From positions 1 through 33,600 of IMG/VR virus record IMGVR_UViG_3300004369_000070: a DNA stretch of 33,600 nucleotides. One strand, given 5' to 3'. The translations under genes were made by a program, and so were the position numbers. The notes below the pieces were generated by a model. The model searched no databases. It was not told the DNA's origin and worked only from the letters and a program-made list of their open reading frames with translations. Of this stretch, positions 1-21,400 are shown one piece after another; within the stretch, counting starts at the first letter, position 1; every line of letters starts with the position of its first letter. This stretch comes from a virus.

Positions 1-1579
1 AGTTAGTTCCTTCAGTTACCTGAATTTGATAGTTTACTGATCTATAAGTTGTTGCACTTATGGACATTACAACTGCTGGACTTGTACTATTTGTTGTGAG
101 AATACCGGATTGAATATCTCCTGCAATCAGTTCCAGATTAGTTGCAGATACTGGTGCAAAAGTAAACTTACTAATACTTGCATCATATCTTAAGAATCTA
201 CCATCACCCAAATTTGAAATATCTACATCATCCAAATCATCTAAACGAACAGCACCACCGCCACCAATGGATCCGAGTTGATACTGTACTCTCTCTACGA
301 ATCTTTTATAGTGTTGCTGTAACTGATCAAGAGTTACAAAGTTCTGATCAATAGGAGTAAGAGGATCTGGATTATCAGTATCTGGTGGATCTGCACCAAG
401 AGGAACATTAGTCTCTGCTAAAAGTTTCTGCTCCTCCTGCAGTTTCTTTTGAGAAGACTTAATATCCTTAATGATCTTATAAAGACCTTTGATATCAGAC
501 TTTACATAATCAATATCTTTATCATAATACTTGACTTCAGGAAGACTAGAAATCTCTTCCTTCAATTCATTAAAATACTTAAGAAGTAACTCATCAGTTT
601 TTACACTGGTATAGTTAATCTCCTTTAGTTCTTTATTGATATTTTTCTTTAGAGTGTTGTACTCTCCAAGAATCTGTTTCTTAAGTTTACGATCATCATC
701 TTTAAACTCTTTGTGGTACTCCCACATTTTAAGAGATGAAGATCTCATCTCCTTCCAGATTTTTTCTTTCTCTTCGTCAATACGAACGTTTACTTTACTA
801 TCAAGATCATTGATATCAGAATCAATCTTGACTGCATTGTTAAAGTACTTTGTCTCTAAATCTTCAGATAGTTGCTCAAGGTCATATTCAACTTTCCCTC
901 GCAATCCTTCAATTTTATCGGAGACTTTTATGAAGTCATCTTCAATAACACTAAAGGTTTTGCCAATCCAAGAGAAGTCTGGAACTTCATTTATTTCATT
1001 GATCCATTTAGGAAACTTAGGAATCGATGCTTTAACTTGATCAATTGCTTCACAGATCGCTTCAATCTCAGCATCGTAATACTTAACCTCAGGAAGGTTT
1101 GCTACATCAGTTTGAAGACTATCAATTCTGTCTTCAATAGCATCCACCTGCTCATCATAATACTTGACCTCTGGAAGATCTTTAATCTGAGATCTAACTA
1201 AGTCAATCTGATCACAGATTGCTTCTACTTCTCTATCGTAATACTTTACTTCAGGAAGTTGCGAGATTTGCTCTGCAAGTTCCTCAAGTTCTTTATCGTA
1301 ATACTTAATCTCTGGAATATCAGGAATCTCTTCCCTGACATCATTAATCAGACGGATTAATTCTGGAAATGGTGGAATAATATCTTTTACTTCTGCGAAA
1401 GTATTTCCGTCAGCGTCTTCTATAGTTACCGTTTCTTCGTTTATTACTTCTTTTTCTTCTTCAATAAAATCTTCTACAGAAGGGAGATCCTCTGCGTTCT
1501 CTTCTGTAATATAATCTTCTATTGACGGTAGACTTTCATCTCCATCGAAATCCTCATATGAGGGCAAATCCTTAGACAT
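1..1579 (-). CDS. Coiled-coil/fibre-like virion structural protein (C-terminus beyond window)
   Basis: An uninterrupted reading frame starts at ATG 1579 and is still open at base 1 (526 codons seen). The N-terminus is very acidic and holds three copies of an LPSxED(F/Y) motif (residues about 5, 17 and 32). It is followed by tandem heptad-like repeats, each carrying (L/I)PE(V/I)KYYD near residues 88, 108, 135, 162 and 346. Long charged helices (about 210-390) look coiled-coil. A proline-rich break (about 392-410) leads to a Gly-rich hinge and a LDDLDDVDISNL segment typical of phage fibre proteins, then a beta-rich part cut by the edge. An AGAGGAAGGGAGAG purine tract lies 28-41 bases upstream of the ATG, too far to be a normal ribosome binding site. 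It follows gp16, where T4 has gp17. I infer an extended virion fibre or whisker-like protein; the exact position in the particle is unknown. Confidence 0.75.
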   Translation of the reverse strand, partial: MSKDLPSYEDFDGDESLPSIEDYITEENAEDLPSVEDFIEEEKEVINEETVTIEDADGNTFAEVKDIIPPFPELIRLINDVREEIPDIPEIKYYDKELEELAEQISQLPEVKYYDREVEAICDQIDLVRSQIKDLPEVKYYDEQVDAIEDRIDSLQTDVANLPEVKYYDAEIEAICEAIDQVKASIPKFPKWINEINEVPDFSWIGKTFSVIEDDFIKVSDKIEGLRGKVEYDLEQLSEDLETKYFNNAVKIDSDINDLDSKVNVRIDEEKEKIWKEMRSSSLKMWEYHKEFKDDDRKLKKQILGEYNTLKKNINKELKEINYTSVKTDELLLKYFNELKEEISSLPEVKYYDKDIDYVKSDIKGLYKIIKDIKSSQKKLQEEQKLLAETNVPLGADPPDTDNPDPLTPIDQNFVTLDQLQQHYKRFVERVQYQLGSIGGGGAVRLDDLDDVDISNLGDGRFLRYDASISKFTFAPVSATNLELIAGDIQSGILTTNSTSPAVVMSISATTYRSVNYQIQVTEGTN

Positions 1580-3093: not shown

Positions 3094-3101
3094 TATTTAG
3101 G
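3094..3101 (-). promoter_or_regulatory. Possible late promoter box before gp15
   Basis: Minus strand CCTAAATA, six of eight matches to TATAAATA. It includes the gp14 stop and lies 34 bases before the gp15 ATG, further than the other boxes. Confidence 0.3.
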
Positions 3102-4548
3102 GTATTCCAAATGGATTCTGCTCACTAAAGTCTAATATTGCATCTGCAGCAGTTTCAATATCAAAGTTATCTGCATATGGATCATTATCAATGGTTTTAT
3201 CTATGACTTTCAGAACTCTAGTAGCGCCTGAAGTTGATCCTGTTAAAGTTTCTCCTGCAGAAAAACTTCCAGAAATATTTGCAACTTCGAGAACATTTGT
3301 ATCTGCATCCCAAGATCTAACTCTTGCGGTTGTGTTACTAGTAGATCCTGTTACAATTTCATTAAATATAAAGTTTCCAATGTTTGTACCTGTTATTGGT
3401 GCTCCGATAGAAATAGTTGGTGCAACTGAATATCCAAGACCAGCATTTGTCAAGTAAATATTTGTTATCGTTCCTGCAGCAGAAACTACAGCAGTTGCAG
3501 CTGCTGAAACAGTCGTTACGCCAGATTTAAATATTTCATTGGTAAATGAAATATTTGGATTTGTGATATATCCTCCGCCAGCGTTTGTAATTGTGACTAC
3601 ACCAACAATATCGTCTCCAATAACGGTTGTTGCTGCAGCGCCACTACCAGTTCCATCAGTGGTTCTAAAAGTTACTGTAGGTGCCACTGTGTATCCAGAA
3701 CCTGGATTTGCAACATCAACCCTCTGAACTGATTGGAATTTTGGATTTACATTAAGATTACAAACATTGATACCACCAATCATTGAGGCAATACCTACGG
3801 CATTTACTCCACCTGAAGGTGCTGCAGTTACCTCAACAGTTGGAACCATTCCATATCCACCACCTCTATTGGTTATTGTAAACGATCTCACACCACCATC
3901 AACAAGTCCTGTAATAGCAGTAGCGGTGACTGCTGTTCCAACCATTGTGAGAGTTTGAGTTATTCCCCGAATGGTACTAATACCATCATCAGTCAATCCA
4001 TCAACTTCATTTCCCAATAACTCATTATCAATTTCATCAATTCCAGTTGCAATAACTTCATCTTGATACTGAAAGAGTTCGCAAGATAACTCATAGACAT
4101 AAAGATCTTGCAATTGATAATATGGTTTCGCATATTCTACATCTTTAATTTCATATATGCGATCATCTAGAGGAAACCAAATTAAATCTCCACCTTTTGG
4201 TCTAGTGGATAATTTAATATTTGATTGTCCCTGAATCAAAGGAGTGATGTAGTTTTCATATCTCTCTCTAGAAATAATAAGCTTCACTTCATCTTTCGAT
4301 TCAATACCAAATTTTGATAATACGTCTCCAGCACCACCATAAGCATCAAAGTTATCTACATACGCCTCAATTGGTAAAGCATTATCAAACTTAGATTGAA
4401 CAACCTCTCTTATGACAGTTTTTTCTGTGAGGTACTTTCTTGGAATATAATATATGTCAACACCATACATCCTCAACTGTTCGTTGATCAAATCCTGAAC
4501 TAAGTTCTGCTCAGATTTAGTACCTTGAGTAAAAAATGGATTTAACAT
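3097..4548 (-). CDS. 14: gp14 neck protein with a large beta-repeat insertion
   Basis: Residues 1-190 (MLNPFFTQGTKSEQNLVQDL, MYGVDIYYIPRKYL, DLIWFPLDDRIYEIKDVEY) match the T4-type gp14 neck protein that, with gp13, joins the finished head to the tail. The C-terminal tail (about 450-483, DPYADNFDIETAADAILDFSEQNPFG) is also family-like. T4 gp14 is about 256 aa; this one is 483. Between the conserved ends sit four G-x-G-Y/P-x-V beta repeats (residues about 220-380, nt about 3400-3890), then a TSGAT-type module (about 400-450). A 29-base stretch at 3470-3498 is identical to part of the giant gene. The ATG overlaps the gp13 stop (TAATG), with AGGT just upstream. Confidence 0.92.
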   Translation of the reverse strand: MLNPFFTQGTKSEQNLVQDLINEQLRMYGVDIYYIPRKYLTEKTVIREVVQSKFDNALPIEAYVDNFDAYGGAGDVLSKFGIESKDEVKLIISRERYENYITPLIQGQSNIKLSTRPKGGDLIWFPLDDRIYEIKDVEYAKPYYQLQDLYVYELSCELFQYQDEVIATGIDEIDNELLGNEVDGLTDDGISTIRGITQTLTMVGTAVTATAITGLVDGGVRSFTITNRGGGYGMVPTVEVTAAPSGGVNAVGIASMIGGINVCNLNVNPKFQSVQRVDVANPGSGYTVAPTVTFRTTDGTGSGAAATTVIGDDIVGVVTITNAGGGYITNPNISFTNEIFKSGVTTVSAAATAVVSAAGTITNIYLTNAGLGYSVAPTISIGAPITGTNIGNFIFNEIVTGSTSNTTARVRSWDADTNVLEVANISGSFSAGETLTGSTSGATRVLKVIDKTIDNDPYADNFDIETAADAILDFSEQNPFGIP

Positions 4549-5393
4549 TAACCTATCATATCAAGGGGTGGAAGTTCATAAGTATTTGACATGACTTCTT
4601 TAATATTATCTAACTCTTTTTCTGCATCATCATATATTTGTCTTCCATTCAATTCTATTCCTCCAGGAAGTTTTACTCCTTGGAACTTGATGAGATTTTG
4701 TCCCCACTGTCTTTTAATAAGAGCAGTCAAATATCTTTTTACAAAAGAATCATTATAAACTCTTACATAATCATTAGGATCTAAAAGTCTATAGCAATCA
4801 ATAATGATATAATCATCAACAGCAATACTTGACCAATCTATATCGAGATATAATCTATCTTGTCTTTGATTGAATCTGATTTGTTTTTGTGTTGTTAATG
4901 CAAAATCGATATCTTCGAGATATCTTTTGGTCATTGCATATGTTAAAATTTCTGTAGAACCCCAATAGTAAATATCATTCAAAAATAACTGATATTTAAC
5001 ACTGAACATATTATTTGTTACAGTGTTAGAACCGTCAAAATGGAAAATTTTTGAAATACCTATAACATGCGGAGGAATCTGAAGATAGTTACTATTCTCT
5101 TCATATGAAAAAGTAGTTGCAGCTCCTGCAATCGTTGTATCTGCAGTAGTGGTTACAATACCAATAGGATTACTTCCACCTCTACCTCGTCCCCTATCAA
5201 TATCTGCTTGAGTAACTTTGTATTTTAAAAATGTTTGAGTTACTCCATCAAAATGTCTTTCGTGGAAATACTGAAGGGCATCATCAACCAGATCATCAAT
5301 CTGCTCATCAGCAACATTAATCTCCAATACAGGAGCACCTAGCTGCCTCTTACAGTACGCAATTAATTCTGATCTACTTGCTGGTTGAGCCAT
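4548..5393 (-). CDS. 13: gp13 neck protein
   Basis: This 281-aa protein is the T4-like gp13 head-completion/neck protein, forming the ring between portal and gp14 (T4 gp13 is about 309 aa). The N-terminal block SELIAYCKRQLGAPVLEINV-DEQIDDLVDDALQYFHERH is strongly conserved in cyanophage gp13. The middle carries a short Gly/Arg-rich loop (DRGRGRGGSNP). The ATG has AGGAAA 11-16 bases upstream. A late-promoter-like CATAAATA box lies 23 bases upstream and contains the stop codon of the preceding 128-aa gene. It is coupled to gp14 by a one-base TAATG overlap. Confidence 0.92.
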   Translation of the reverse strand: MAQPASRSELIAYCKRQLGAPVLEINVADEQIDDLVDDALQYFHERHFDGVTQTFLKYKVTQADIDRGRGRGGSNPIGIVTTTADTTIAGAATTFSYEENSNYLQIPPHVIGISKIFHFDGSNTVTNNMFSVKYQLFLNDIYYWGSTEILTYAMTKRYLEDIDFALTTQKQIRFNQRQDRLYLDIDWSSIAVDDYIIIDCYRLLDPNDYVRVYNDSFVKRYLTALIKRQWGQNLIKFQGVKLPGGIELNGRQIYDDAEKELDNIKEVMSNTYELPPLDMIG

Positions 5394-5415
5394 TTATTCA
5401 CTAGTTTCCTATGTG

Positions 5416-5423
5416 TATTTATG
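5416..5423 (-). promoter_or_regulatory. T4-type late promoter box before gp13
   Basis: Read on the minus strand this is CATAAATA, matching NATAAATA, the form of the T4 late -10 element (TATAAATA) I recall for cyanophage S-PM2. It lies 23 bases from the gp13 ATG and includes the TAA stop of the upstream 128-aa gene. The predicted transcript would start just before the AGGAAA ribosome binding site, giving a leader of about 17 bases. Start-site mapping is not available here. Confidence 0.55.
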
Positions 5424-5805
5424 GTGCTGCTGATACTGCAGGAACCACCATTACATTGCCATTCGCAATGGTATATAAAGTCGATCCACTACTAACTATC
5501 ACATCATACATGTATCTTCCTTGGTCAAGACTTCTAGTCGAAGTAGAACCTAAAGAAATTTTTAGTTTGCCTTCTAGAGCACTAGTGATTCCAACCGAAA
5601 ACGAGGTTGTTACACCAAGTGTTGCTCCTACAGCGACACTTTTAGATATTGCTGCAGAACCAGAGTAACCAGTCAAATCAAATGCAGTGTTAGCATTATT
5701 AGTTACATTGAATGTAGTTTCAAAATCTGATCCACCATAGATTGTCAGATTGACACCATAAGGAACCCCTGAGTCTGGATCAAAAGTGATATTTTTAGAT
5801 GGCAT
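5419..5805 (-). CDS. Small virion structural protein, beta-sandwich type
   Basis: A 128-aa protein rich in Thr, Ser, Gly and Val with alternating beta pattern (SDFETTFNVTNNANTAFDLTGYSGSAAI, then DQGRYMYDVIVSSGSTLYTIANGNVMVVP). The layout resembles phage proteins of the baseplate-upper-protein N-domain type, with a polar-field beta sandwich and a TGY/TGA turn, but I cannot assign a family firmly. It lies between the large DUF4815 protein and gp13, where cyanophages commonly carry small virion proteins. AGGAT lies about 10 bases before the ATG, and only four bases separate it from the previous stop. A tail or neck-fibre accessory role is inference. Confidence 0.75.
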   Translation of the reverse strand: MPSKNITFDPDSGVPYGVNLTIYGGSDFETTFNVTNNANTAFDLTGYSGSAAISKSVAVGATLGVTTSFSVGITSALEGKLKISLGSTSTRSLDQGRYMYDVIVSSGSTLYTIANGNVMVVPAVSAAP

Positions 5806-5809
5806 CTGA

Positions 5810-5977
5810 CTATCCTATAATTGCGATTGTTTCTTGCTGCTTATAATATAATTTTGCAAAAGACTTTGCAATATTCTTTAGCATATCACGGTCATCACAA
5901 CTATCTATCTCAAATGCAATCTTCTGATATGCAAAAGACTTTTCTAAACTTTTTAATTCAATGCTATCTGGATTCAT
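5810..5977 (-). CDS. 55-aa conserved micro-protein of unknown function
   Basis: A 55-aa frame beginning MNPDSIELKSLEKSFAYQKI and ending KLYYKQQETIAIIG. It has a good ribosome binding site (GGAG, about 7 bases before the ATG), overlaps the preceding 75-aa gene by 14 bases, and ends four bases before the next gene, so it is packed like a real late-operon gene. It is predicted mostly helical and polar, without membrane segments or Cys clusters. I recall similar small proteins at this position in other cyanophages but know no function. A virion or assembly role is only suggested by its neighbours. Confidence 0.7.
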   Translation of the reverse strand: MNPDSIELKSLEKSFAYQKIAFEIDSCDDRDMLKNIAKSFAKLYYKQQETIAIIG

Positions 5978-6191
5978 TAATCAACTCCTTTAGTAATGAC
6001 TTGATATCATTGATATCATCTTTAATACTAGCAACCTCATCTTCAATTGTTTGTATTTTTTGATTCTTTTCAGATTTAATCTTACGACTAGAAACATACT
6101 GATCATAAGATGCTTTATTTACATTAATTATATTGTTTGTTAGAGGATCTCTTGCGAGATCCTTATGACCCTTTTCAGTATAAATTTCCAT
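5964..6191 (-). CDS. 75-aa coiled-coil small protein
   Basis: From ATG 6191 the frame gives MEIYTEKGHKDLARDPLTNN and continues through a lysine-rich middle to a heptad-rich C-terminus (IEDEVASIKDDINDIKSLLKELI, about residues 48-72) that should form a coiled coil. An upstream TTG at 6206 would add five residues and overlap the DUF4815 gene; I prefer the ATG, which begins one base after that gene's stop. Neither start has a clear Shine-Dalgarno, so translation may depend on coupling. The N-terminal KDLARDPLTNNIINVNK pattern resembles small cyanophage structural proteins. Function unknown; oligomerisation or chaperone-like roles are possible. Confidence 0.72.
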   Translation of the reverse strand: MEIYTEKGHKDLARDPLTNNIINVNKASYDQYVSSRKIKSEKNQKIQTIEDEVASIKDDINDIKSLLKELINESR

Positions 6192-6192
6192 A

Positions 6193-9100
6193 TTATGCAA
6201 GAGCAATAACTCTGAGATTTTTCATTTGAGGAACTAGTTCCTGACTTGTAGATGTCATTACGATTTTAATTCTATAAGATCTAAAGTTTGGAAGATCGTC
6301 AACGGTAAATGTACGTTCAATAAAATCGGTATCGTATGCACTATATCCTTTCTTAATTGAATTTCCTATAAAAATGTCAGGTCTTCCGTCACTATCTTCT
6401 TCATTAATCACCTGTCCGTTAACGTTCAGATTCAAATATCCTGGAAATGGTTCAAAGATAGGTTCAAAACCAGGTTCAGAGTTAACTGAGTAAAAAGCTC
6501 TGATATCACAATCAGTTGGAATATGTGCATCTACAAATATTTTAATCGATGATGCAGGATTTTCAAGAGTTACTTCTTTAGAAATATACTGACATGCACT
6601 AGGATCATCGATGATAGTATTCACTCTAGAATCGGTAGCATAATTGGTAATTTCAGAATTAACTCTGTTTGATACTGCATAAACACTACATCTATCCAGA
6701 TCAATTTGAGGAGTTAATTTAGTGTTAGTTGTTCCGAGGAAAAGTCTCATTTGCATGGACTTATTGCCCTCAATAGAATCAAGTTTACGATCTTCATTTA
6801 CTTTAGAGAAAATCGCTCTTGGTGAATCAAAATAATTATTTGCATTAAGAACAACATCTTCAAATCCTGCATTTACATAAGGAATCTCATCACCACTAAT
6901 ACTTTGAGTAGTGACAGTTCTTATTTGACCAGATACGGAGGTTCCTTCTACCGCGATATTGTGTATAGATGGTTTAATAATCTCAAAAGGAATGTTTTTA
7001 GTAGCTCTGACATTATCTCCACCAGCAGATTTTGATGCATTGAGGAATAGTTTGGGGAATCCTACTCCAGTAGATCTATCAGCGTTATCATTAATTCCAA
7101 TAGTTCCAAACTTCTCAGACATGTCAAGTTTGATATGATAAGAATCTAAAGTTATTGGATTTGCAATTGTTACATTGCTTAGATCATGAGTTTTATTAAT
7201 TCTAGCAAGACTTACTCCTGCGAGTTCATACTTGTAGACTGGAGTATCTATAGGATATGATTTTGGAATTGCTCCTCTAGAAATAGATCCACCAATTGTT
7301 GATGATGTTGTAGAAGTATATTCAATTATTTCTTCACCAATCAAAAGTAATCCAGTGTTAGTTAATCCAACCCCAACACCTTCGAAAGTGGCGAAGTTAC
7401 TTCCGGTTCCAGCAGTTACCTGAAGTGGATCTGTGGACGATTTATCATATGCTGCTGACAATTTAGTGGGTTTACCATCAGGAAGAACTTTAAAGATTCT
7501 TACAAAGTTATCATCGAAGTTCATTCCATGATTAACATGATTTACCTTGATATGCAATCCATCTGTAACAGTTGTTATTACATCTGGGATAACATCTCCA
7601 CCATGATCACTATTCAGTTCTCTCTCTACATCATTAGTATCAAAGAAGCGTATAGTTCCAGCAGCTCCAGTAATAAACTCACCTTGAACATTACCAAGTA
7701 TTAATTGAGATGTTTGACCGATACTAGTTACTGTAAATCTTGCATTTCGTCCGATACTCAATCCAGCAGAATCTGATGAAGATGGAAGTGGTGCAGTAGC
7801 ATTAATAGTAACAACATCGCCAACTTGATATCCAGTCCCACCTGCATTACTGATAGTAGCTGCTATAGCAACTCCATCCTCTATAGTAATATCTGCAGTA
7901 GACCCTGTTCCATTTCCAGAAACAGCAACTAAATTTGCTCCAGTAAAAGTAAGGGATCCATCTGCTGGTGTATATCCAACTCCTGGATTAGTAACTGTTA
8001 ATGTTCCTATGGCACTAGCACCAACTCCGATTAAATCTCCCTGTGCAATTCTGTTTGTAGAAGTTCCTTGGAAGAAAGTATTTCCAAGAACATAACGATC
8101 ATCAGCAACTGTTGTTCCCAACCCAACACGAATTTCATTAGAAGCAATATTTAATGGATTCTCCATCAATGTTGGAATTAACTTATTACCTTCAGAAAGT
8201 TCTGGACTATAAAGATCTACAGATCCAAACTCAACAAAGTCCGCTCTATACAGAGTAAACTTAAGATCTTCCCACTGACTTGCTTCCCATGTAGAAGCAT
8301 TTTGCGACTTGAATAGTGATCCAAGTGTTGGTTGATTGGAAATATATGCGTCGGTTAAAATATCATTTTCACCAACTCTAGAAACATAAACACTATACTT
8401 AGTTGAGTTTGAAATTAAGCAGATGGCATATTCCTTACCCCCTTCCAGATAAACTGGAGCAGCAAATTCAAACGTAGTTGCCACAGATCCGTCAGTTGAA
8501 GTATTAACACTATCAGGATAAAGTATTACTTCAGATAAATCAAAATATTTTGGAGTTGGGAAACCATTATCCATGGTTCTGATTTGGAATCTAACGGGAG
8601 TATCTCCATCATCTTTAGTACGGAAGAATACATCACACTTCGTTATGAATACGCCTTCTGGATCTGTTTGTTCATCGACAAGGAAAGATTGTGCAAGGGG
8701 ATCATACCAACCAACAATAGATTCACTTGTAGTTGCTCGCCCAATGTTTCTAGTAGCAGTAACCTCAGTATCAATAGTTCTATTAACAAGTTCCTCTTCA
8801 AAGAGTTTCTTTTGTTCAATTTTTGCATTTCTAATAGAAATAATTTGTTCCTGAACGGTTTCTAAAGTTCCAGCAGTTGTGTATGCTTCTTCACCGACAG
8901 TAGTAGCAGAATCTTGATCATTTTCTGGGTCATTTGTTAATGTGAAAACATTATTTCCTGTATCAAACGATGGATTGTCTTTGTTACTTGGATCTGGAAT
9001 GAAGAAACTTCCTAATAAAGCTGAAGATTTATCTGTTATAAGTCTAACATTTGTTACTTCTGCTTCTGCTCCACTTGTTTGTCCAATCAGTTTCATGCCT

Positions 9101-12100
9101 GTCTGAATATATCCAAAGAAATCACCTTGTGGTTGCTTTGCAAGAGAGTATGTATCTACATTCAACGTGGTTGAAGTAGACGAATAAACTTCGGGAATAG
9201 TTCCGCCATTAACGTAAGGATTGTCTGGATAAATCTCTGTTGGAGAGTTGTAATCACCTCTTCTATGGTTGGATTGAGCAACTCTAAAGTTAATACTAGG
9301 ATTGGTATCCTTCCCTTCTTCACCAAGACCAGTAGTAATAACCCTTCCTTGAACTGTTTCACCAATCTGGAATACACCAGAACTCATTGAAATTTCAATT
9401 AGTTTAGGAACACAGTATTTTGTAACATCTTTACCATCGAAGAAGGCATAGATTTGAGTGCTTGGCTTCAAGTTTGCTGCATAAAATTCAATATTTCTTG
9501 ATCTTACTGTAGTAACAATTTCAGTGCTGATTACTTTATCACCAGTAGAAATTTCTTCAAAAGTTTCAGTAACATGATATTGTGTACCAGTTCTTGACTT
9601 AACACCACTCTCAATTGTATCAGTTACATCCTGCTCAATTGGTTGAGTAGTAGTCTGTCTAACCCATTCTGCAGGTCCACCAGATCCACCATTAATCCAT
9701 CCACCTCGTCCAAATGTGTGACTGCTAGTAGTGGTAGACTCTCTAGTGTCAGTTGTAGTGGTTGTAGTGCCAGACCAATTTGTTTCCCAAGAATTCCACA
9801 ACTCAGAAGCAAATCCAGTTTCTGGATCAACACCATATTTTTCTTCTGCCTCAGACATAATCTGAGAGTAGTTGCCAATGGTATTGATTGTTTTTGCTTT
9901 TAATCTCGTTTGGTCAACCCAGTTATCAGAAGTAGGTGTTAAAACAATAGTACCCTGCCAGAAACTAATGAGAAAAGGAGTTACACTTTCAGTTCTAGTT
10001 GCAAAAGTTTGCTTTATCCATTCAACATCAGAATAATCAAGACTGATAATGCCATTTTCCTTTCTGACATTTGTTCCATCTATAGTAGAGTTTCTTTCGT
10101 CAACAGTGGCATCGGCATCAACAACAGGACCTGTTTGTAAAGTAAAAGAATTCGTACTATGTTTTGGTCTAAGAATCTTATTAGATTGATCAATACTATT
10201 ATTTCTACCAAATCTTATATCTTGAGTAGAGAATGATGTAAAGTTGTCTACAAAGAATCCAGACTTAAATCTATTGAAACCATTCGCATCAGGAATAAAC
10301 TGATTAGCAGTAGTTATTTCTAATGCAGAAAGAGTTGTGTAATACTCTAAGTTTCTAATTCTATCTTCAAGTTTTTTGATATCTTTCATCTGATATCTCT
10401 TGTACTTCAAGAATTGAATAGATGCTTGTTGTACGTTGTGAAGATATGGTGGGTATTCTATTGTAGCAAGTTCAATTGCATTAGATGGAGGTTCTGGTTG
10501 TGCTCTCTTTGGATCATCCGAAGGAGTTCCAAACTTCATTTGAAGTTTTCCGTCTTTATGTAAATAAAGTCTATCAATTCTTCCTTGATAGTATGTATAA
10601 TCTAAGAAAATAGTTTCATTAGAAGCAAGAATATTTGGAACAGAATTTCCTGTTGCATTAAAAGATCTCCCAAGGAACTCTAAAGGTGATCTAGATCCCT
10701 CAGATACTGCGTAATCACTAACTCTTGGTCTTAAGTCAATAATATCCGTATTCAATATACCATTTACTGCTTTAACTTCTGTGGAGTAGTTAAAATCATT
10801 ATATGATTCAACAGTAATAATATCACCATTATCGGAAGAATCAAAAGATGCACTCTTATAATATACTTTAATTTTATTACTTGGAGAATCTGAATCAGTT
10901 TTTCTAGTTAAAAAACCATGGTTATAGATAGTACCTCTTTGACCAGATCCAAAGTTATAGTTTGAAGAAATATTAAAAGAAGTTGTATTTAAACTACTTA
11001 TTGCACCAGAAATAGAAGATTCTTGGAATACAACAGTTTCACCTTCTACAAACTTAAAGTTATTCTTAGGAAGATATCTAATGATAGATGAATCTTTTAT
11101 TTCTGCAAAAACTGCAACTGCACCACTTGTTTGACCAACTATTAATTCTCCGATAGTCATGTCTTCGGTTGAGGCAGTTGGTCCATTCAACTGAGTAAGA
11201 GTTATTTCTGGCGCACCAAAATTATTATCACTCAATGTAGGATCAGATGTTTCATATATTGCATGAATCTCGATTACATCTGGAACATTTAGTGATATTA
11301 TATTATCTTGAACTCTAGTTCCAAATGGATAATTTCCATAAGTCAATCCATCATTTAAAGTGGTTGAACCGATTCCAGAGGATGATTTGATTGACTTATC
11401 AACAACTAAAGTTTTAACTCTATTTTTAATTTTTTTCTTTGCTTTTACATTAATCTTTTTAACTGTAGTAACAAGTTGAGCACCAGTATTATTTTCACCT
11501 AAACCTCTAATCTGAAGTTCTCTGAGATCTGCAGAGAATGAGAAATTATTAGATCTAAGTGGTTCAGTAGTTCCATCAGATCTAATGAGAGAATATCTTT
11601 CGTCATTATATGAAAGATAAGTTTCCCCTTCAGGAAGTGTGACTGTAGTTAAACTAGTAGAACTTAATTGATTATTTTCAATATCCACCGTAAATGCTTT
11701 TCTAATTATTAATTCTGCATCTGTGAGATCAACAACAGCAATGTTTTCATTTGGCAATTCTGTGTAAAAAGTTGTATCAGATGAAGAATCTAATTCAGTA
11801 GTTACTACTTTAAGATCTGAAGCAGTAAAGTTTGATGTAGGAAGACCGCCATCAACTACACCAGAAACTGTTGTTACTCCTGAAACAGATACCTCATTCG
11901 TTGTGACACCTACAACTCTTACTAAAATCGGATCATTAGATGTAGAAGGATCAGAATACTCAAGTAAGTTGTTTAATTTTATTTTACCAGGAAATAATTC
12001 ATCCGAACTAGTAATAGTACTAATGTTTCCACTATAAGCAGTAATAGAAGCAACTCCTATCTCAAATGATGAAGTCTGTATAACATTAGCACTAAAAGTG

Positions 12101-13854
12101 TTAATTCCTGCAATATTGTTTCCGTTTGTTCCTGCAGATATTCCTGTATTTGAGTAAACAGATTTTATATCCGAAATACCATAAGAAGTAATTGCAGTGG
12201 CAACTCGATTTTCTACAGTTTGTTCGGTAGAAATTCCACTTCTAAAGATAAGAACTTCGTCTTTAATGAATTTACCTTTTTGATCATATACAGTTAGTGC
12301 AGTTCCAGCACTAACAGGATTTCTTAAAAATCCTGTTGCTCCACTACTGTTTCCCTCAACATATGCGGGAACAGATAGATCAATTGAGTTATTGACAGTA
12401 ATTTCTGTAAAAGGTTGAATGTCATACATTGACATTCCCCATTCATTTGTCTGCGGAGATGTTGAATTATATGATCCTGATTCTAGTCTGAAATCAAATA
12501 CTCTGGCAAGTCCTATTTCTTTTCCTGAAGCTGCTTCTGAGTTTAATCCAACTCTTTGATCTCTCAAACTAAGAATAAATGTATTACCAACACCAATTGT
12601 TGGAGATCTAAACACACTATTCAGTTTAAGTGTGGGACCTGTATTATATGGAAAGAACTGATTTTCAATAGTTTTTGTTGTTCTTGGTTTAGGTACATCA
12701 ATAAAAGATGGACTTATTGTTTCAATTTCATATCCAGATACATAAGCTTTACCTGGAGATACTCTACAAATTGCTAAATCTGGACTGGGAGTTGATCCAC
12801 CAGCAGTAAATTGTCCTTCTTCATATAATCCCTGATTACCTAGATTATTATCAAGAGAATTTAAAATAGAAACGTTAAATGGTTTGACAACATAATGTCC
12901 ACTTTCATCGTATGTCCTTCTTGCTAAGATGTCTGTAAGATCATCGTAGAATACTGTACCACCGCCTTTAGCACTACCTCTTCTGCTAGGTGTTTGAAGA
13001 ACTCCATTAACCACCGTTGCTAATAAAATAAAATTGTCATCATCAAAATCATCAAGAGATTTTTTAAATAAACTTGTAGATATTTTAAGTCTATCTGCAC
13101 CCGGAGATCCATAGTTATTAAATCCTTGAGAATTATCATTCAAAGATTCATCGGCGTTTGAATTTACAATTTCTTCAGAAATGAAAAGACCAATTCTATA
13201 ACTAGGAGTGTTTGTATATTGATCTAAAACTAAAGACTCTCTGTTTACATTTACAAAATGTCCGCGAATGAAGTATACTCCACTTTCAATTTGAAATACT
13301 GATCCTGTAGCAGTTGAATTTGCTGTTATAGTATTTGCAAATGGGCTTCCAGATGAAATGATAGAATTGCCCAATAATCCAGAACTCAAAGGTTGGTTAC
13401 ACGTTAAAGATTCCCCATCAATAAATGTTTGTGTAGTATTATCAGTTCTAGCAGAACCTTGATATGCAATATATAATGTTAAATTGCCTCTTTCCGAATC
13501 TGCAGACGAAAGAATGCTATCAACAACTGCAGTAACACCGGACGTTTGTCCAGTAATAGTTGTTCCAATTAATTGATCTGCGTATGCTTCAACAGGAACT
13601 CCCCGAAAAGTATTTGCCAGTTGTACAGAATAATACAACTGTGAATATCCAGTGTTACCGGGAATTACCTTTGCACCTTCTTTAAAAAAGTGTTGACCAA
13701 ATTTTTCTACTTGATTCTGAAGAATCGATTGCAGAGTTGTTAATTCTCTTGCCTGAACTGGATATCCAGGTTTAAAAAGTATCTTGTGGTAATCGCTCGC
13801 CGCATCAAAATCGTCAAAATATGGTGCTACGTTAAGGTTCGTTTGCTGTGGCAT
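6193..13854 (-). CDS. Giant DUF4815-type tail/baseplate protein (probable gp10-like fibre connector)
   Basis: A 2553-aa virion protein. The first 75 residues (PYFDDFDAASDYHKILFKPG, QARELTTLQSILQNQVEKFG, FKEGAKVIPGN) are the signature I associate with the DUF4815 family of phage tail proteins. A helical segment lies near residues 1125-1185 (KDIKKLEDRIRNLEYYTTLS). A second family hallmark is GWYDPLAQSFLVDE, with VFITKCDVFFRTKD, near residue 1720. Between and after these come modules shared with other proteins here: at least three QTSGA repeats, two G-x-GY repeats (about 1950-2020) and one IGEEIIEYTS module (about 2160). The position after gp8 suggests it replaces T4 gp10 and perhaps gp9, gp11 and gp12, linking wedges to tail fibres. 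It starts seven bases after the gp8 stop with only a weak AAAGA ribosome binding site. Confidence 0.85.
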   Translation of the reverse strand: MPQQTNLNVAPYFDDFDAASDYHKILFKPGYPVQARELTTLQSILQNQVEKFGQHFFKEGAKVIPGNTGYSQLYYSVQLANTFRGVPVEAYADQLIGTTITGQTSGVTAVVDSILSSADSERGNLTLYIAYQGSARTDNTTQTFIDGESLTCNQPLSSGLLGNSIISSGSPFANTITANSTATGSVFQIESGVYFIRGHFVNVNRESLVLDQYTNTPSYRIGLFISEEIVNSNADESLNDNSQGFNNYGSPGADRLKISTSLFKKSLDDFDDDNFILLATVVNGVLQTPSRRGSAKGGGTVFYDDLTDILARRTYDESGHYVVKPFNVSILNSLDNNLGNQGLYEEGQFTAGGSTPSPDLAICRVSPGKAYVSGYEIETISPSFIDVPKPRTTKTIENQFFPYNTGPTLKLNSVFRSPTIGVGNTFILSLRDQRVGLNSEAASGKEIGLARVFDFRLESGSYNSTSPQTNEWGMSMYDIQPFTEITVNNSIDLSVPAYVEGNSSGATGFLRNPVSAGTALTVYDQKGKFIKDEVLIFRSGISTEQTVENRVATAITSYGISDIKSVYSNTGISAGTNGNNIAGINTFSANVIQTSSFEIGVASITAYSGNISTITSSDELFPGKIKLNNLLEYSDPSTSNDPILVRVVGVTTNEVSVSGVTTVSGVVDGGLPTSNFTASDLKVVTTELDSSSDTTFYTELPNENIAVVDLTDAELIIRKAFTVDIENNQLSSTSLTTVTLPEGETYLSYNDERYSLIRSDGTTEPLRSNNFSFSADLRELQIRGLGENNTGAQLVTTVKKINVKAKKKIKNRVKTLVVDKSIKSSSGIGSTTLNDGLTYGNYPFGTRVQDNIISLNVPDVIEIHAIYETSDPTLSDNNFGAPEITLTQLNGPTASTEDMTIGELIVGQTSGAVAVFAEIKDSSIIRYLPKNNFKFVEGETVVFQESSISGAISSLNTTSFNISSNYNFGSGQRGTIYNHGFLTRKTDSDSPSNKIKVYYKSASFDSSDNGDIITVESYNDFNYSTEVKAVNGILNTDIIDLRPRVSDYAVSEGSRSPLEFLGRSFNATGNSVPNILASNETIFLDYTYYQGRIDRLYLHKDGKLQMKFGTPSDDPKRAQPEPPSNAIELATIEYPPYLHNVQQASIQFLKYKRYQMKDIKKLEDRIRNLEYYTTLSALEITTANQFIPDANGFNRFKSGFFVDNFTSFSTQDIRFGRNNSIDQSNKILRPKHSTNSFTLQTGPVVDADATVDERNSTIDGTNVRKENGIISLDYSDVEWIKQTFATRTESVTPFLISFWQGTIVLTPTSDNWVDQTRLKAKTINTIGNYSQIMSEAEEKYGVDPETGFASELWNSWETNWSGTTTTTTDTRESTTTSSHTFGRGGWINGGSGGPAEWVRQTTTQPIEQDVTDTIESGVKSRTGTQYHVTETFEEISTGDKVISTEIVTTVRSRNIEFYAANLKPSTQIYAFFDGKDVTKYCVPKLIEISMSSGVFQIGETVQGRVITTGLGEEGKDTNPSINFRVAQSNHRRGDYNSPTEIYPDNPYVNGGTIPEVYSSTSTTLNVDTYSLAKQPQGDFFGYIQTGMKLIGQTSGAEAEVTNVRLITDKSSALLGSFFIPDPSNKDNPSFDTGNNVFTLTNDPENDQDSATTVGEEAYTTAGTLETVQEQIISIRNAKIEQKKLFEEELVNRTIDTEVTATRNIGRATTSESIVGWYDPLAQSFLVDEQTDPEGVFITKCDVFFRTKDDGDTPVRFQIRTMDNGFPTPKYFDLSEVILYPDSVNTSTDGSVATTFEFAAPVYLEGGKEYAICLISNSTKYSVYVSRVGENDILTDAYISNQPTLGSLFKSQNASTWEASQWEDLKFTLYRADFVEFGSVDLYSPELSEGNKLIPTLMENPLNIASNEIRVGLGTTVADDRYVLGNTFFQGTSTNRIAQGDLIGVGASAIGTLTVTNPGVGYTPADGSLTFTGANLVAVSGNGTGSTADITIEDGVAIAATISNAGGTGYQVGDVVTINATAPLPSSSDSAGLSIGRNARFTVTSIGQTSQLILGNVQGEFITGAAGTIRFFDTNDVERELNSDHGGDVIPDVITTVTDGLHIKVNHVNHGMNFDDNFVRIFKVLPDGKPTKLSAAYDKSSTDPLQVTAGTGSNFATFEGVGVGLTNTGLLLIGEEIIEYTSTTSSTIGGSISRGAIPKSYPIDTPVYKYELAGVSLARINKTHDLSNVTIANPITLDSYHIKLDMSEKFGTIGINDNADRSTGVGFPKLFLNASKSAGGDNVRATKNIPFEIIKPSIHNIAVEGTSVSGQIRTVTTQSISGDEIPYVNAGFEDVVLNANNYFDSPRAIFSKVNEDRKLDSIEGNKSMQMRLFLGTTNTKLTPQIDLDRCSVYAVSNRVNSEITNYATDSRVNTIIDDPSACQYISKEVTLENPASSIKIFVDAHIPTDCDIRAFYSVNSEPGFEPIFEPFPGYLNLNVNGQVINEEDSDGRPDIFIGNSIKKGYSAYDTDFIERTFTVDDLPNFRSYRIKIVMTSTSQELVPQMKNLRVIALA

Positions 13855-13860
13855 AATTCT

Positions 13861-15414
13861 TTAGAACTGCAAGATAACTTTTATGTCTTCTTTTTGATTC
13901 GACGATCTTGTAATCGAAGGTCTATTATCTACGTATATAATATTACCAGAATGCTGTTTTACCTCTGGGGATGCAACACCTGTAGAGAAATCCATTCCAA
14001 GATAATATGTACGATTATTTATCGTGGTTTTATTATCACTAAATGTACTATCAATACTTAAAGGTAACCCAGTAGATGGAGTGATCGCTAATGATCCAGT
14101 TCCAGTTGGACTTCCAGTAAAATCTCTTAAGAGATAACCATAAGTTGGATTAGTAACTCCTATTCCTGCAGTAGTGAATCCTGCAAGTGTTCTATCTTGC
14201 CAAAGTTTCAGAACTCCAGTATTCTGATCATAATTCACAACCCTACCTGCTGCAGTAACTCCAGTTCCAACTGTTTGTGTAACAAAAGAATCTGGGGTAA
14301 ATGTTGCTTCACTATACCCAACTCCTGTTAATTTTAAAGCAGTAACAGCACTAGCTTTATCTAGTGTTAAAACTGATCCTCCAGTTGGAGAAAGTGGATT
14401 TTCTATAATACCAATTCTAGCAAATTGATTTCCTGTGATAAAATCTGGATTTTCATTGTCATTCTCAATTCTAGAGTATAATAGTACGTTATACGCACCG
14501 AGTTCTCTATAAATATCTGCTCCATGACCGCCTTGTGGCGTTATAATGACATCAAAAGTTGGTCTTGTTGTTCCTGCTGGTATTCCTGCAAATTCGAAGT
14601 CAAGAGTTCCAAAAGTATACCCAGACCCTTGAGAAGATACTGTAACTTCATTTATTTTTGAGTCTCCATCAATAGTGATAGTGCATTCTGCTCCTGTTCC
14701 ATCACCTCTAATCGGAACTCCAGTATATGTCTGATTTGCCGTTCCTAATCCGGCACCACGATTAGTCACTGTTACGATTTTAATAGAACCATCTACAGCA
14801 TTATCTCTAACTAGAGCAGTTTCATTGCTAGTGCTCCAGTCTAGAGGAACTGGAATGAAATCTGTAGCATCAAACTTAACAATATCTGATGGTTTAATAG
14901 TATAAAGATATTTCCAAATATATCCATCTCCACTAGTTCCAGCTGCTTTTGGTTCTAAATCAGTGAAGGTTGGCTCATCTAGAGAAGGTCTACCGGCAGT
15001 ATTTTCTGGATTTGTTCCATTTTGCAAACAAATATAAACCCTATAATCGCTATTGATTACATAAAAACTCGACTTATAAAGATTAGTTTGCCCAGTAACT
15101 GGTGTAGTATTTGCTCTACTATAATCATGACGATACATTTCATAAGTAGTTCCAGATGACCAAAATCTCTTAGGAATAACCTGCCTTACATCGGTAGAGT
15201 TTATCCTTTTCATAGCAATCATTGTATTCCAATAATCATTCTCCTCATTAAAATTATCTTTTGGTGAAGGAGGATTATCGTTCCATGTGGAAGAATAATC
15301 TGTCGGATTTGGAAGTCCGACGAAAGAATAATAAGAGTTACTAGCATTAGCAACTCCCGCAACAAAGTTCTTCGCGTTTAATATTCTTATCTGATCAGTT
15401 ATAATAGCAGCCAT
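13861..15414 (-). CDS. 8: gp8 baseplate wedge protein (enlarged)
   Basis: The N-terminal 180 residues (QIRILNAKNFVAGVANASNS, YYSFVGLPNPTDYSSTWND, RFWSSGTTYEMYRHDYS, GDGYIWKYLYTIKPSDIVKF) are characteristic of T4-like gp8, the dimeric wedge subunit that binds gp10, gp7 and gp6. T4 gp8 is 334 aa; this one is 517. The extra length is beta-rich, with two G-x-G repeats (NRGAGLGTANQTYTGVPI and SQGSGYTFGTLDFEFAGI, near residues 217-275) and a TGVTAAGRVVNYDQNTGVLKL segment resembling the TSGAT module. It follows the gp7-like gene in T4 order. A NATAAATA box lies 21 bases before the ATG; the ribosome binding site is poor (AAAAAGT). Confidence 0.92.
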   Translation of the reverse strand: MAAIITDQIRILNAKNFVAGVANASNSYYSFVGLPNPTDYSSTWNDNPPSPKDNFNEENDYWNTMIAMKRINSTDVRQVIPKRFWSSGTTYEMYRHDYSRANTTPVTGQTNLYKSSFYVINSDYRVYICLQNGTNPENTAGRPSLDEPTFTDLEPKAAGTSGDGYIWKYLYTIKPSDIVKFDATDFIPVPLDWSTSNETALVRDNAVDGSIKIVTVTNRGAGLGTANQTYTGVPIRGDGTGAECTITIDGDSKINEVTVSSQGSGYTFGTLDFEFAGIPAGTTRPTFDVIITPQGGHGADIYRELGAYNVLLYSRIENDNENPDFITGNQFARIGIIENPLSPTGGSVLTLDKASAVTALKLTGVGYSEATFTPDSFVTQTVGTGVTAAGRVVNYDQNTGVLKLWQDRTLAGFTTAGIGVTNPTYGYLLRDFTGSPTGTGSLAITPSTGLPLSIDSTFSDNKTTINNRTYYLGMDFSTGVASPEVKQHSGNIIYVDNRPSITRSSNQKEDIKVILQF

Positions 15415-15434
15415 TTGTGACGGACTTTTTTACT

Positions 15435-15442
15435 TATTTATT
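15435..15442 (-). promoter_or_regulatory. T4-type late promoter box before gp8
   Basis: Read on the minus strand this is AATAAATA, seven of eight bases of the T4 late -10 element. It lies two bases after the stop codon of the giant gp7-like gene and 21 bases before the gp8 ATG, the same spacing as the boxes before gp25 and gp13. Confidence 0.5.
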
Positions 15443-15443
15443 A

Positions 15444-18400
15444 TCAAAAATTATGAGTAAAATTTTTGTATCTAATATATCTTGTTCTGTAAACTTTTGA
15501 AGAAGTAGATATACCTGTCAATCCATTTGTTCCTATTCCAGTCAACGTATGAGCTGGATATGAAATTTCTTTAGTTCTACCCGCCAGAACAATCTTACCC
15601 CAAGAGTAATCTCCAAGGAATGCTCCAGTTGAGAACCCAGAAACACCATCAGGTTCAATATCAGTATTTACGGTTACTTTAACTACACTAGTACTAACTC
15701 CAGCAACAGTTTGAGTCACTACTCCAACAGTGTTGGCAACATATACATTATCAATAAATTCTGACCCAATTCCAACCACTGTAGAATTGTCAGTTCCGAA
15801 AGCAGTTATACTTGTTGATGCTGTTCCTAGATTGGAATTTCTTACTATAAAGTAATCTCCAGTTGATATTCCACTTATAGTTACAGCAGTTCCAACCAAA
15901 TCAGTATTTCTCATATCGGAATCAAAGGGAATGTGTAGATGGAATACCATTCCAGTTGCACCAACACCAATGGAGGTTGTTCCAAGTCCAACAATTATTC
16001 CAGAATCTCCAAAATATTCAGAATTTAAAACATCACAAGTCTCTGTTTGTTTTGCAGGTGGACCAATCAAAACTAATGGTGGATTTGTTTGAGTGTATCC
16101 AGATCCAGGATTCGTAACAGTAATAGCAGTAACAGATCCATTAGTAATTGTTGCAGTTGCAGTTGCAGTTGTAGATCCTATACCAACACTTACATCTGGT
16201 GCTGTAGAATATCCAACTCCTCCTTCGTTAATAGTAATCGAGTTTATAGTTCCTGCAGCAGAAACTACAGCAGTTGCTGCAGATCCAATTGTAACTATTG
16301 AATTTACCAATGTTACTGATTTTCTAAAGGATTCTCTAGATGCAGAATTTGAATTTTCATTATTAAGATCAAACAATGGTCTTAATCGGTCAACATAGAT
16401 TATGGTAGATCCAATACCAACTGCACTGATAATATTTGCAGTTGGGCTAATAATAGGTTCGTAAATTTCTCTATCTTTATTAACTTCTTGTCCGTTAATA
16501 ATCTTATCTTCAGTTTGTCTGCACCATGTTATTGGTCTTTCAAGAGTAGTATCAACCGTATTTCCTGGTCCAAAATATGGAAGAGTTTCACACTTATCAA
16601 CATTTGTTATAGAACTGATTGTTCTATTATTTTCCTGAAGATAAGACTTTTGACCCCTGTCTGGGTCATAATTTAAAGTTACTTCGTCTCCATATTTTAT
16701 TGTTTCAATGACTTCTCTCTCAATAACATCCAGTTCATCTCCACTACCTTTATAGAAACAGATTTTAAGAGTATCTCCAATCTTCAATGCTTCCGAGAAA
16801 GTTATCTGAGATCCTCCATTAAATGTATAAGAGACTCCTGGACTCTGAAGTATTCCGTTTACAAATACCAAAAGTAACTGATCCAGTTCGATCTTTGATC
16901 CTTTTGTTTTGTTAATGGATATTGGAATACCTGCCTTGATTAATGGAAAGTCAACTCTGGATCCATCAATATAACTATTCAAATCATCAAATGTTTCGAG
17001 GACCCCCAAAGACCATCCAGTAAACTCGTCACGAATAACTCTTTCAATTTGTATTTCAAATTGATTTGATGGTGAGAAACCAGGAGTAGTGGCAATACCA
17101 ACATTTCCTCCAACAGAAACTGTTAATTTCTGACCATTGTCATATCCATATCCGGTATTATTAATTTCAAAATCAATAACACTAGAACCTTGACCCACAA
17201 CAATATCAATTGTAGCAGCTGTTCCCAATCCAGTTGTTCCTGAAACATATTCTAAAGGTAAATTGGTATATGAAAGTGGCGCATCAAATACAACAAAAGG
17301 CAAGTTTGTAGTCGTATATCCAATTCCAGGATTAGTAATAGCAACACCAGTGATATGTCCACCAACAATAGAGGCAGTTCCAATAGCAACGAAATTACCT
17401 GTGCCAACACTTGAAGTTCCAACACTAACATTTACTGTTTGAATTCCAGATCTATAACCAGATCCACTATTTCCAATTGAAATCGCTGAAATAGTTCCAG
17501 CAGCAGATACAGTTGCAGTTCCGCCTGCAGCAACTAGAGGTTGATAACCAAATCCCGCTGAAGATCCAACGGAAATAATCATTCCTCCTCTTGGAAAAGT
17601 AGAAACTCCAACATCATTTGACATTGATTCTACGAAATCAGACTCAGTTGTTCTACCTGCACCAACAAAAGTAATCGAAGTTATTCCAGTGTTTTCTGAT
17701 AAAGTATAATTATTTAAATTCCCAAAAACTTGGAATATATCATTGACTAATATCACTGCACCTTCATTAGAAATATCATCAATATCACTTCCGTTAGATT
17801 TTAAAGTAAACTCTCTCTCGATTCCATTGAATTGTTCTGAAATATCATCAAAAACATAATTTTTATGGTACGTTTCGTTGGTAGTATTTTTTTGAGCTGT
17901 TCTCATAAAAGTTCTTCCTTGGAAACTGGAGCTATTTGTTATTCCAAGGTAATCTCTTTCATCTGGAGGATTTGTTGTAGACCCAATTGGAGTATTTCCA
18001 TATGGTGCATCAATAAAGTTTATAGTGTTGGCAACAATATTATAATTACCAACAACTTTAGTTACTAAATCGCCTGTAGAAAGTCCTGTTTGGATTCTTG
18101 TTCCCATCCATCCTCTACGAACCGAAAGAGCATTTGTACTTCCAATACCAACACCTTCAACTTTTACGATTTCGTCACCAACTTTAAGCAAATCTCCACC
18201 AAAAATGGAATTTATATCATTTATAGTAATAGTATTATCAGTTGTTAACACTTCATCATATAATGATGTTGTAACTGCAGTAGAAACGATTGGAGATTGA
18301 ATAATATTGTCAATAGCAACTAATACTTTTGGATTTTGATTTGTTGCAGTGAATGTGTGGGCAGCTCCAACACCACCAGTACCAACAGAAGTTAAATCAA

Positions 18401-21400
18401 GAGTCTTTGGAGAGAAACTTAAAGCATCTTCTGCATTTCTAGAAAGTTTGATAGTATTATCATTAATTTTAACTACAAAGATTCCTTCCGAAGGAAGTAA
18501 ATCTGTTGTGAGTCCAGTGCTAGTAAAAGTAGTTTCTGCAATACCAATGGATTCTGTGTTGGCAATACCTGGACATGTATATTCAATTTTTTCACCAGTT
18601 ACATAAAAGTGATTTGGAATTGTAATAGTATTTGAAGATGTATTAATTCCACTCTCGACAAATGTTCTTTCGAAAATATTATCACCTTTATGAGTCAAAT
18701 TAAATGTTCTCTTGATATCTCTATCAGTTCCTGTGTATTCACCAGATCCAGTTTCTAAAGTTCCATTACTAAAACTAATGATAGATTTAGTATCATCTTC
18801 GATTCTAAGGGCATTAGCATAAACATGAACAGTTGCATCAATCCCAGATAAAGGTGTAAAAAGAATTTGAGTAGTTGCGGCAAGTCCAACAGAGTCTACA
18901 ATTACTTTAGATCCAAAAGTACCAAGTCCAGAATGAGTTTGAATATTTCCATATTCAGTAGCAAATGTTTCACCAGAGGATGCTCCTTCAATATGATCAT
19001 CAATAACAATATACTCTAAAAATTCATAACGATTATTTGTAGTATCATGAACCTGAATCATAAAGTACCCAGCATCGTATCTGTCCTCACTAAGAGAAAC
19101 ATGAGTTGGATATTCTGCAATAACATTTTCTGTTGGAGAACCAGAAGATGTTATATTTGTAGTTGTTGATTGTAGTCTAGCATGTTTTAGATCTAAAGTA
19201 GAAATACCGGATGATATAGAAGATAAACCTACGACTATTGTATTAACTACAGCAGTTGTCCCTATATCTGCAGATGGATTAAAATCAACTTTAATATTTG
19301 ATCCATCAAGATATGCAGTATATGTTCCAAATCCAGATTCAGATGGTACTGATGAAGAAGTAATCAGTTTACCATATTCAAGAATAGAAACATCTGATTC
19401 ATCATGGACAATACTTAATTCTTGAACTTCAAATTCTGTTGAATTGAATGTAGAAGTACTGCCATAAGATGGATTACTAACATCTGGAGAAATTTCAACA
19501 AGAACCTTCAAAGAGTGATAGGTATTGCCTACACTCACAATAGTTGTAGATATTCCAGAATTAACTATCACACTCTCAGAGTCAATCAACACTCCTCCGA
19601 TAGAAGTCGATCCTGTACTGAGATAGTTGTCATTTAAATTATAAGAAAGTGATGCTATATGATAATCGTTTACTAATGATTTGGTTGGATAGAATAATAA
19701 TTGACCCTCTGTACCAAATAATGAGACATCAAAAGATCCTTGATCATATGCAGTTTCTACTCTTGCGTATTGATTAATATATGCAAAAGATCCATCATGA
19801 ATAAGATCAACCACTAATGCTTGTCTCTCTTGAGTAAATCTCTTGTCAACTACGTAAGTAAAATACTTTCTAAATCTAAACTCTCCAAGTTGGAATCTAT
19901 TAACTACACTAAAAGGATTTGCCCTACTATTACTATTAAACTCCGAGCTCAGATCATCAATAGAAAGAACTCTATTTCCAAATGATTCTGTAAAGTCAGT
20001 TAAAATAGTATTATTAAGGGCAATTTCATTAGATAAAACTCTACCATCCGAAAGACTTAAATTATTTTCTGTAGCAATATCAAAATCGAATACACAATTC
20101 GTATCTACAGATCCATGTAAGTTGTTCGCAACAGTAACATCAGTTAACTCTGTAGAAAGACCAACTTGTAACGATTGATTTGAACCAGTTCCAGTTGTTG
20201 TACTATTTGTTGATTCGACTTGAAGATCGCCAAACTTTTTATATCCAAGAGTGTGGTTTACAGAAGATATAGTATCATTCCAAGTATCAAATGGAATGGT
20301 GCTTTTTAATGAATATGAGAATTTTTGATAATAAAAATTGTCTTGCAATCTTTGCAAATTATTATTAAAATATCCCGAATTTACTTGATTTCCACTGAAT
20401 ATTTCAGAAGAAGCATCAGTCTCAAAATAAGATTCGTATGATGTTACTTTTGAAGCAACTCCAGAAAGTTCTGAAGTAAGTCCTTTTATAACTTCTCCTT
20501 CTACGAAATCATCAGAAGAAAGAACTCTGAGAGTTTTTGTTGTATTATCCCAGCTTTGAATAATACCTTCTTTTTCACCAGTGATGACTTTTTCTCCCCT
20601 AAGATAATCAGACGTAAATAATTGTACATCAAAAGTTGGGAAATCTTTCTGGGCAATTATCCTTCCAGATGAATTGATTATATCAAACTCTCCAGGAATT
20701 TCTCCTTCATTTAAATAATCAGATAAGTTATAAGAAACTGTACCAATTCCACCAATATTAGGAGTTACTGCATTGAGAGTGAATAGTTGATATCCATAAT
20801 TACTTGAGTTATAACCTTTAATAGTAGTACCAACACCAACAGTGTTGATATTTTCAATCAGTACTAAATCGCCAACTTCAAATGGGAATGATGTACTAAA
20901 TCCAACCGACATTTTTACAGTCACATCTTTGGTGGCCGTATTAAATTCAACTGTACTAATTCCAACCCCATTAGTATTTTCTACTGGTATAACTGTTGGA
21001 GTTGAATTATTGATTCCTCTAGTATTACTTAAGATGGTTACATTTGAATCACCCAAGGAATACTTAGTTGAAATATCAGTAATCTGATTTCCAGTTTTTC
21101 CATCAAAGAAAAGTAACTCTGGTGCCGAAGAATATCCTCTTCCAGTAGAAGTTATTTCAATACTTTCTATTTTGGCAAATGTATCCACATTAATAACTTG
21201 TGGAAGAGAAGCACTTGGTTTTAAAGTCTTATCACTTGGAAAATCGTAACCAATATCATTGATTTTTACCTTTTCAATAACTCCAATATCCTGAGTGACA
21301 GATACTAAATCTCCTCTTACTCCTTCGATCGAATTAATGGAGTTAATCGAAGGTAGGATGTCATAATTTTTTCCAGAACTAGTAACATCTACTGAAGATA

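Follow-up and report, generated by a model that had tools for sequence, protein, structure and literature searches.

A predicted beta-strand repeat in neck and baseplate proteins of a T4-like cyanophage fragment, and a 29-base identity between its gp14 and giant genes

T4-like neck, or head-closure, proteins (PF11649, PHROG 460) include the gp14 of phage T4 itself, which has 256 aa. Cyanophages and pelagimyophages also encode a VrlC/DUF4815 protein, and VrlC has been described as a baseplate component (PMC7029224). The Synechococcus phages Bellamy (gene 111) and S-SM2 (gp7) carry giant proteins of PHROG 2885, which lie between gp6 and gp8 and are annotated as gp7, baseplate wedge initiator. 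Because these phages are stated to lack T4 Gp7 itself (PMC7029224), the name 'gp7' of the cyanophage giants may be a positional one. Recombination of cyanophage genomes within and between populations has been documented in a study that compared counterpart regions of the genomes and did not concern exchange among different genes (PMC5112629).

We analyzed a 33.6-kb fragment of an uncultivated virus (the window, the whole stretch of 33,600 nucleotides), which carries T4-like cyanophage structural genes, all on the minus strand: gp16, gp15, gp14, gp13, a DUF4815/VrlC protein, gp8, a 4,092-aa giant, gp6 and others. Its closest named relatives are Bellamy and S-SM2, with identical gene order, including the gp13-gp14-gp15-gp16 arrangement around gp14. 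The neighbours of gp14 include gp15 (PF16724, E 2e-83), the terminase small subunit (PF11053) and a head-tail adaptor (Ad2). For comparison we used 33 IMG/VR contigs and 11 named phages, together 44 related genomes or fragments that carry these genes. The repeat comparison covered 45 genomes, whose pairs are related and non-independent, with only a partial giant in several contigs.

Repeat-bearing structural proteins

The gp14 gene (3097-4548, minus strand, like all genes and repeat units below) encodes a 483-aa protein with a T4 gp14-like N-terminal part (residues 1-176) and a C-terminal repeat region (about residues 195-455). The N-terminus matches PF11649 (E 5e-28, score 98.6 against a cut-off of 25), the protein matches phrog_460 (head closure Hc2), and T4 gp14 in the PDB matches residues 2-168 (E 2e-22). 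Unlike T4 gp14, it has about 290 further residues with four repeats. Using an iterated repeat profile, scored in bits, we located these units at aa 217-242 (3823-3900, 33.4 bits), 271-298 (3655-3738, 34.7 bits), 310-338 (3535-3621, 27.2 bits) and 356-386 (3391-3483, 36.3 bits).

The DUF4815 protein (6193-13854, 2553 aa; PF16075, E 4e-58; phrog_358), whose counterpart in S-SM2 is annotated VrlC, resembles the VrlC/DUF4815 proteins of cyano- and pelagimyophages in both families. It differs from them in having two repeat units only, a weak, partial match at 7969-8001 (7.6 bits) and a second unit at 7792-7884 (25.4 bits). The baseplate wedge protein gp8 (13861-15414, 517 aa) contains the PF09215 domain (E 1.5e-16) and is covered over its full length by phrog_438. 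Its two units lie at 14749-14793 (a partial match, 9.5 bits) and 14608-14664 (16.0 bits).

The giant (15444-27722, 4092 aa) matches phrog_2885, a baseplate wedge subunit family, among other families; Bellamy and S-SM2 have a giant with this annotation at the corresponding place. It is 49% identical to the Bellamy giant, agrees with the giants of both phages in position and repeat slots and is similar to them in length, with no essential difference. Two of its units (aa 3821-3851 and 3859-3890, 26.2 and 30.3 bits) lie at 16053-16262, adjoining the 29-base identity described below. Four more (aa 3376-3404, 3406-3436, 3452-3482 and 3511-3540, 19.6-27.5 bits) occupy 17103-17597, and single units are found at 21093-21179 (aa 2182-2210, 28.4 bits), 23316-23402 (aa 1441-1469, 30.3 bits) and 24885-24974 (aa 917-946, 25.5 bits). 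The remaining three (aa 1060-1096, 1104-1130 and 1143-1171, 22.4-27.0 bits) lie at 24210-24545. The giant also contains a YHYH domain (PF14240, E 9e-26) at residues 1259-1358 (23649-23948 of the window); such domains have been discussed as candidates for host recognition (PMC7029224). In Synechococcus phage B23 (L229) the giant is split over two adjacent genes at 7909-19688, each annotated gp7.

By the profile, gp14 thus has 4 units, gp8 and the DUF4815 protein 2 each and the giant 12, in agreement with a preliminary description of this DNA that had counted four, about two, about two and about eleven. The pattern proposed there is less uniform than described: its strict form (G.GY...P) is present in all four gp14 units and in three giant units, and none of the gp8 and DUF4815 units has it. 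Over the 45 genomes, real proteins gave 736 profile matches above 5 bits and shuffled proteins one.

AlphaFold predicts beta strands for gp14 residues 195-455 (pLDDT mostly 80-94) and gives no confident prediction for residues 1-194 (pLDDT under 50); the C-terminal part of the giant is likewise predicted as strands. Structure searches of the PDB returned no significant match to the repeat region among solved structures: the best Foldseek hit had E 0.07, and the best VIA-align hit (T4 baseplate, 5hx2 chain A; 80 residues, 6.0 A) reached Z 7.0, where Z 8 is the level that counts. Viral models in BFVD match the region with E values down to 4.5e-21, and these include cyanophage neck and structural proteins, tail-fibre-like cyanophage proteins and, at 1e-4, the Bellamy giant. 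CBM77, the sole PDB sequence match of the giant (E 0.063), was not meaningful and was set aside. A literature search, judged by titles, recognised no paper on the gp14/giant repeat.

As far as sequence comparison and predicted strands go, the repeats prove to be an old building block of about 30-45 residues that marine T4-like phages have used over and over in their neck and baseplate proteins. To judge from the predicted strands and the T4 homologies, they most likely act as beta-sheet scaffold or spacer segments that lengthen gp14, gp8, VrlC and the gp7-type giant.

Inheritance of the repeat slots

Gene-by-gene alignments place the repeats in fixed columns: gp14 has four main slots, gp8 and the DUF4815 protein have two each, and the giant has about a dozen. 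The nearest neighbour of a unit in another genome belongs to the same slot in 515 of 542 cases and to another gene in 11. A tree of the two slots bearing the motif that contains the 29-base identity requires 4 gene-label changes, compared with 26 in shuffles; in this tree the window gp14 unit groups with the gp14s of two other genomes (G005 and G006), and the unit of the window giant with its counterpart from G001. The fixed columns, the same-slot neighbours and the tree show that every repeat copy has its set place in its gene and is inherited by position.

The 29-base identity between gp14 and the giant

Positions 3470-3498 in gp14 and 16249-16277 in the giant are identical over 29 bases (GTTCCTGCAGCAGAAACTACAGCAGTTGC on the plus strand), exactly as reported in the preliminary description. 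Read on the minus strand, both copies encode ATAVVSAAGT, directly before gp14 repeat 4 and a C-terminal giant repeat. The 29-mer occurs in the window record at these two sites only; with two mismatches allowed, the match extends to 37 nt (3465-3501 and 16244-16280). Among the 2.9 million viral contigs of IMG/VR, a set in which records very close to the window may be missing, the exact 29-mer is found in one other contig, that of the closest relative (G001), at the same place in its giant. The gp14 of this relative is 91% identical to that of the window, yet reads GCAACTTCTGTCGTCAGTGCGGCAGGAAC (GTC AGT GCG).

Because the giants of six relatives (G001, G004, G006, G007, G009 and G013) already have GCAACTGCTGTAGTTTCT, the giant copy is ancestral and it was the gp14 side that changed. 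Among 43 gp14s aligned by codon, 36 use AGY for this serine and six have Asn or Gly codons instead; the window alone has TCT. Close relatives have GTG or GTC, AGT, and GCA or GCG at this place. Inside the 29-mer, the locally nearest gp14s (L016 and L017) differ from the window only in reading GTG AGT GCA for GTT TCT GCT, that is, in four changes within a 7-nt block (3478-3484), all of which match the giant. This private block sits within a repeat that is otherwise of gp14 type. The flanking codons are GCT and ACG in gp14 and GCA and ACT in the giant, so that any transferred tract would be at most about 31 nt. Switches between AGY and TCN are rare (11 of 634 serine codons in common with G006).

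The length of the identity is unusual. In 400 synonymous-codon shuffles of gp14 and the giant the longest match never exceeded 25 nt; other genomes reach at most 19 nt against their own giant, and between-genome pairs without the window reach at most 22 nt. As the 29-mer exceeds every shuffle and every such pair, plain chance is strained. A tail fitted to the between-genome pairs, which are non-independent, gives about 7e-5 per pair, or about 0.3% over 38 genomes, and we put the chance at roughly 1e-3 to 1e-2 before counting the places looked at, the 29-mer having been picked from many possible coincidences. Elsewhere in gp14, it is not unusual for four or more changes to fall within 7 nt. Among the matches listed, about 0.6% of pairs of ATAVVSAAGT copies with a TCN serine agree in all 29 bases.

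We consider it probable that the 29-mer is a one-off that arose in gp14 of the window lineage, against a background of repeats otherwise inherited vertically by slot. About four bases in a 7-base block of gp14 would have come to match codons already present in the giant. The most likely cause, which we favour with limited confidence, is a single very short templated change, by gene conversion or template switching, with a tract of at most about 31 nt. The source could be the giant of the same phage or another copy of the motif; any copy with GTTTCTGCT may have served as donor, including gp14 alleles of other lineages. That the codons were copied from the giant into gp14 of the same phage, with the common repeat as landing site, is possible but doubtful; if true, it would show directly that sequence can pass from one virion gene to another that is not its orthologue. 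What is observed is a 29-nt tract with a private four-base block and gp14-type flanks, and its short length also fits convergence. Since the peptide is common, its codons are biased, clusters of changes occur elsewhere and the 29-mer was selected, a templated event and codon convergence are both tenable.

Codon convergence, a serious contender that falls somewhat short of even chances, would derive the block from ordinary substitutions under strong codon bias on a peptide conserved in both genes, with no template. In marine phages, both genes indeed often carry ATAVVSAAGT. Among the 111 TCN instances listed, the serine codon is TCT in 85% and the following alanine codon GCT in 81%, and GTT is used in 55%. 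GTT-TCT-GCT consists of the codons used most often for VSA in this family, which weakens the earlier argument from identical codons to exchange. At least 24 gp14s of more distant lineages use TCN, with up to 27 of 29 bases identical among the matches listed, and gp14-giant pairs from different genomes reach 22-23 nt. Convergence nevertheless requires a switch from AGT to TCT, two adjacent changes that are unique among the 43 gp14s, together with two synonymous changes next to them, every one to the state of the giant, and the extrapolated chance over the 38 genomes is low.

Allelic recombination could also supply a template, if the block came from a TCN-writing gp14 of another phage lineage and not from the giant. 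The TCN-spelled gp14s among the matches listed provide candidate sources, gp14 modules move between lineages (see below), and recombination is documented in cyanophages (PMC5112629). A search of IMG/VR found no gp14 with the exact 29-mer, however, and the flanking codons remain of the AGY-clade type, which would make the tract just as tiny. We regard this origin as unlikely.

The preliminary description went further and took the identity as a sign of recent exchange between non-homologous structural genes. Ongoing gene conversion between virion genes through their common repeats would homogenise the copies within a genome; in its favour, the 29 identical bases include synonymous sites and are an outlier among 1,444 gp14-giant comparisons. 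Against it, the slots are conserved, and the best gp14-giant unit DNA identity shows no within-genome excess (0.517 within genomes, 0.518 permuted, p = 0.58). Over 182 slot pairs, DNA identity within minus between genomes averages 0.0004, and in 38 genomes the longest exact gp14-giant match averages 14.7 nt when both genes come from one genome and 14.5 nt when they come from two. The best paralogue of a unit lies in its own genome in 1.1% of cases, compared with 2.4% expected. Other gene pairs likewise lack a within-genome excess, except for the adjoining gp8 and DUF4815 frames; a 37-nt match between these two genes in S-SCSM1 was discarded, as it probably arises where the reading frames, taken from stop to stop, physically overlap.

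We therefore reject general concerted evolution over gp14, gp8, the DUF4815 protein and the giant, for which no within-genome homogenisation is seen, and hold ongoing conversion to be very improbable. Units cluster by gene position and the gp14 copy of the 29-mer is missing from close relatives, so that exchange as a regular process fails and one possible event in the window lineage survives. A repeat common to several virion genes thus gives no measurable homogenisation in these phages, and the repeats can therefore be used as orthologous slots in phylogenies. An assembly or read-correction artefact, in which giant k-mers were copied onto gp14 reads, is hardly credible: the window is an uncultivated fragment assembled from a metagenome and its private block lies exactly where the two loci share sequence, but gene order is normal around both copies and usual k-mer correction would not make as many as four changes within 7 nt.

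Probable exchange of gp14 modules between phages

Some relatives have long gp14 forms of about 850-950 aa (856-949), compared with 483 aa in the window and 256 aa in T4; about 370 extra repeat-rich residues follow repeat 3, at about residue 335. These forms are L200 and L201 (G026), L202 (G027), L203 and L204 (G029), L205 and L206 (G032), L209 (G034), L213 (G036), L215 (G038) and L217 (G039). Exchange is visible here in allelic form, with the repeat-rich gp14 insert common to two phage lineages. Between representatives of these lineages (G026 and G036), the inserts are 69-76% identical, whereas the gp14 N-termini are 67%, gp8 70% and the DUF4815 proteins 57% identical. The gp14s of G026 and G012 are 98% identical in their N-termini, and only G026 has the insert.

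Because the insert is more similar than the gene parts that flank it, and because G026 and G012 differ by the insert, these comparisons point to transfer of a gp14 repeat module from one phage to another at the corresponding locus. The insert fits the exchange within and between populations described for cyanophage genomes (PMC5112629), and exchange would thereby be located in whole gp14 repeat modules moving between phage lineages. The gp14 module region adjoins a cluster described as host-recognition in related pelagimyophages (PMC7029224).

A further repeat lies at the start of the window, where a 526-aa open frame (2-1579, minus strand) contains a 34-nt repeat five times, at 510, 1062, 1143, 1224 and 1284 (510-1317 overall). 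The frame has weak Pfam matches, and the Bellamy gene in this place is annotated as a putative tail fibre.
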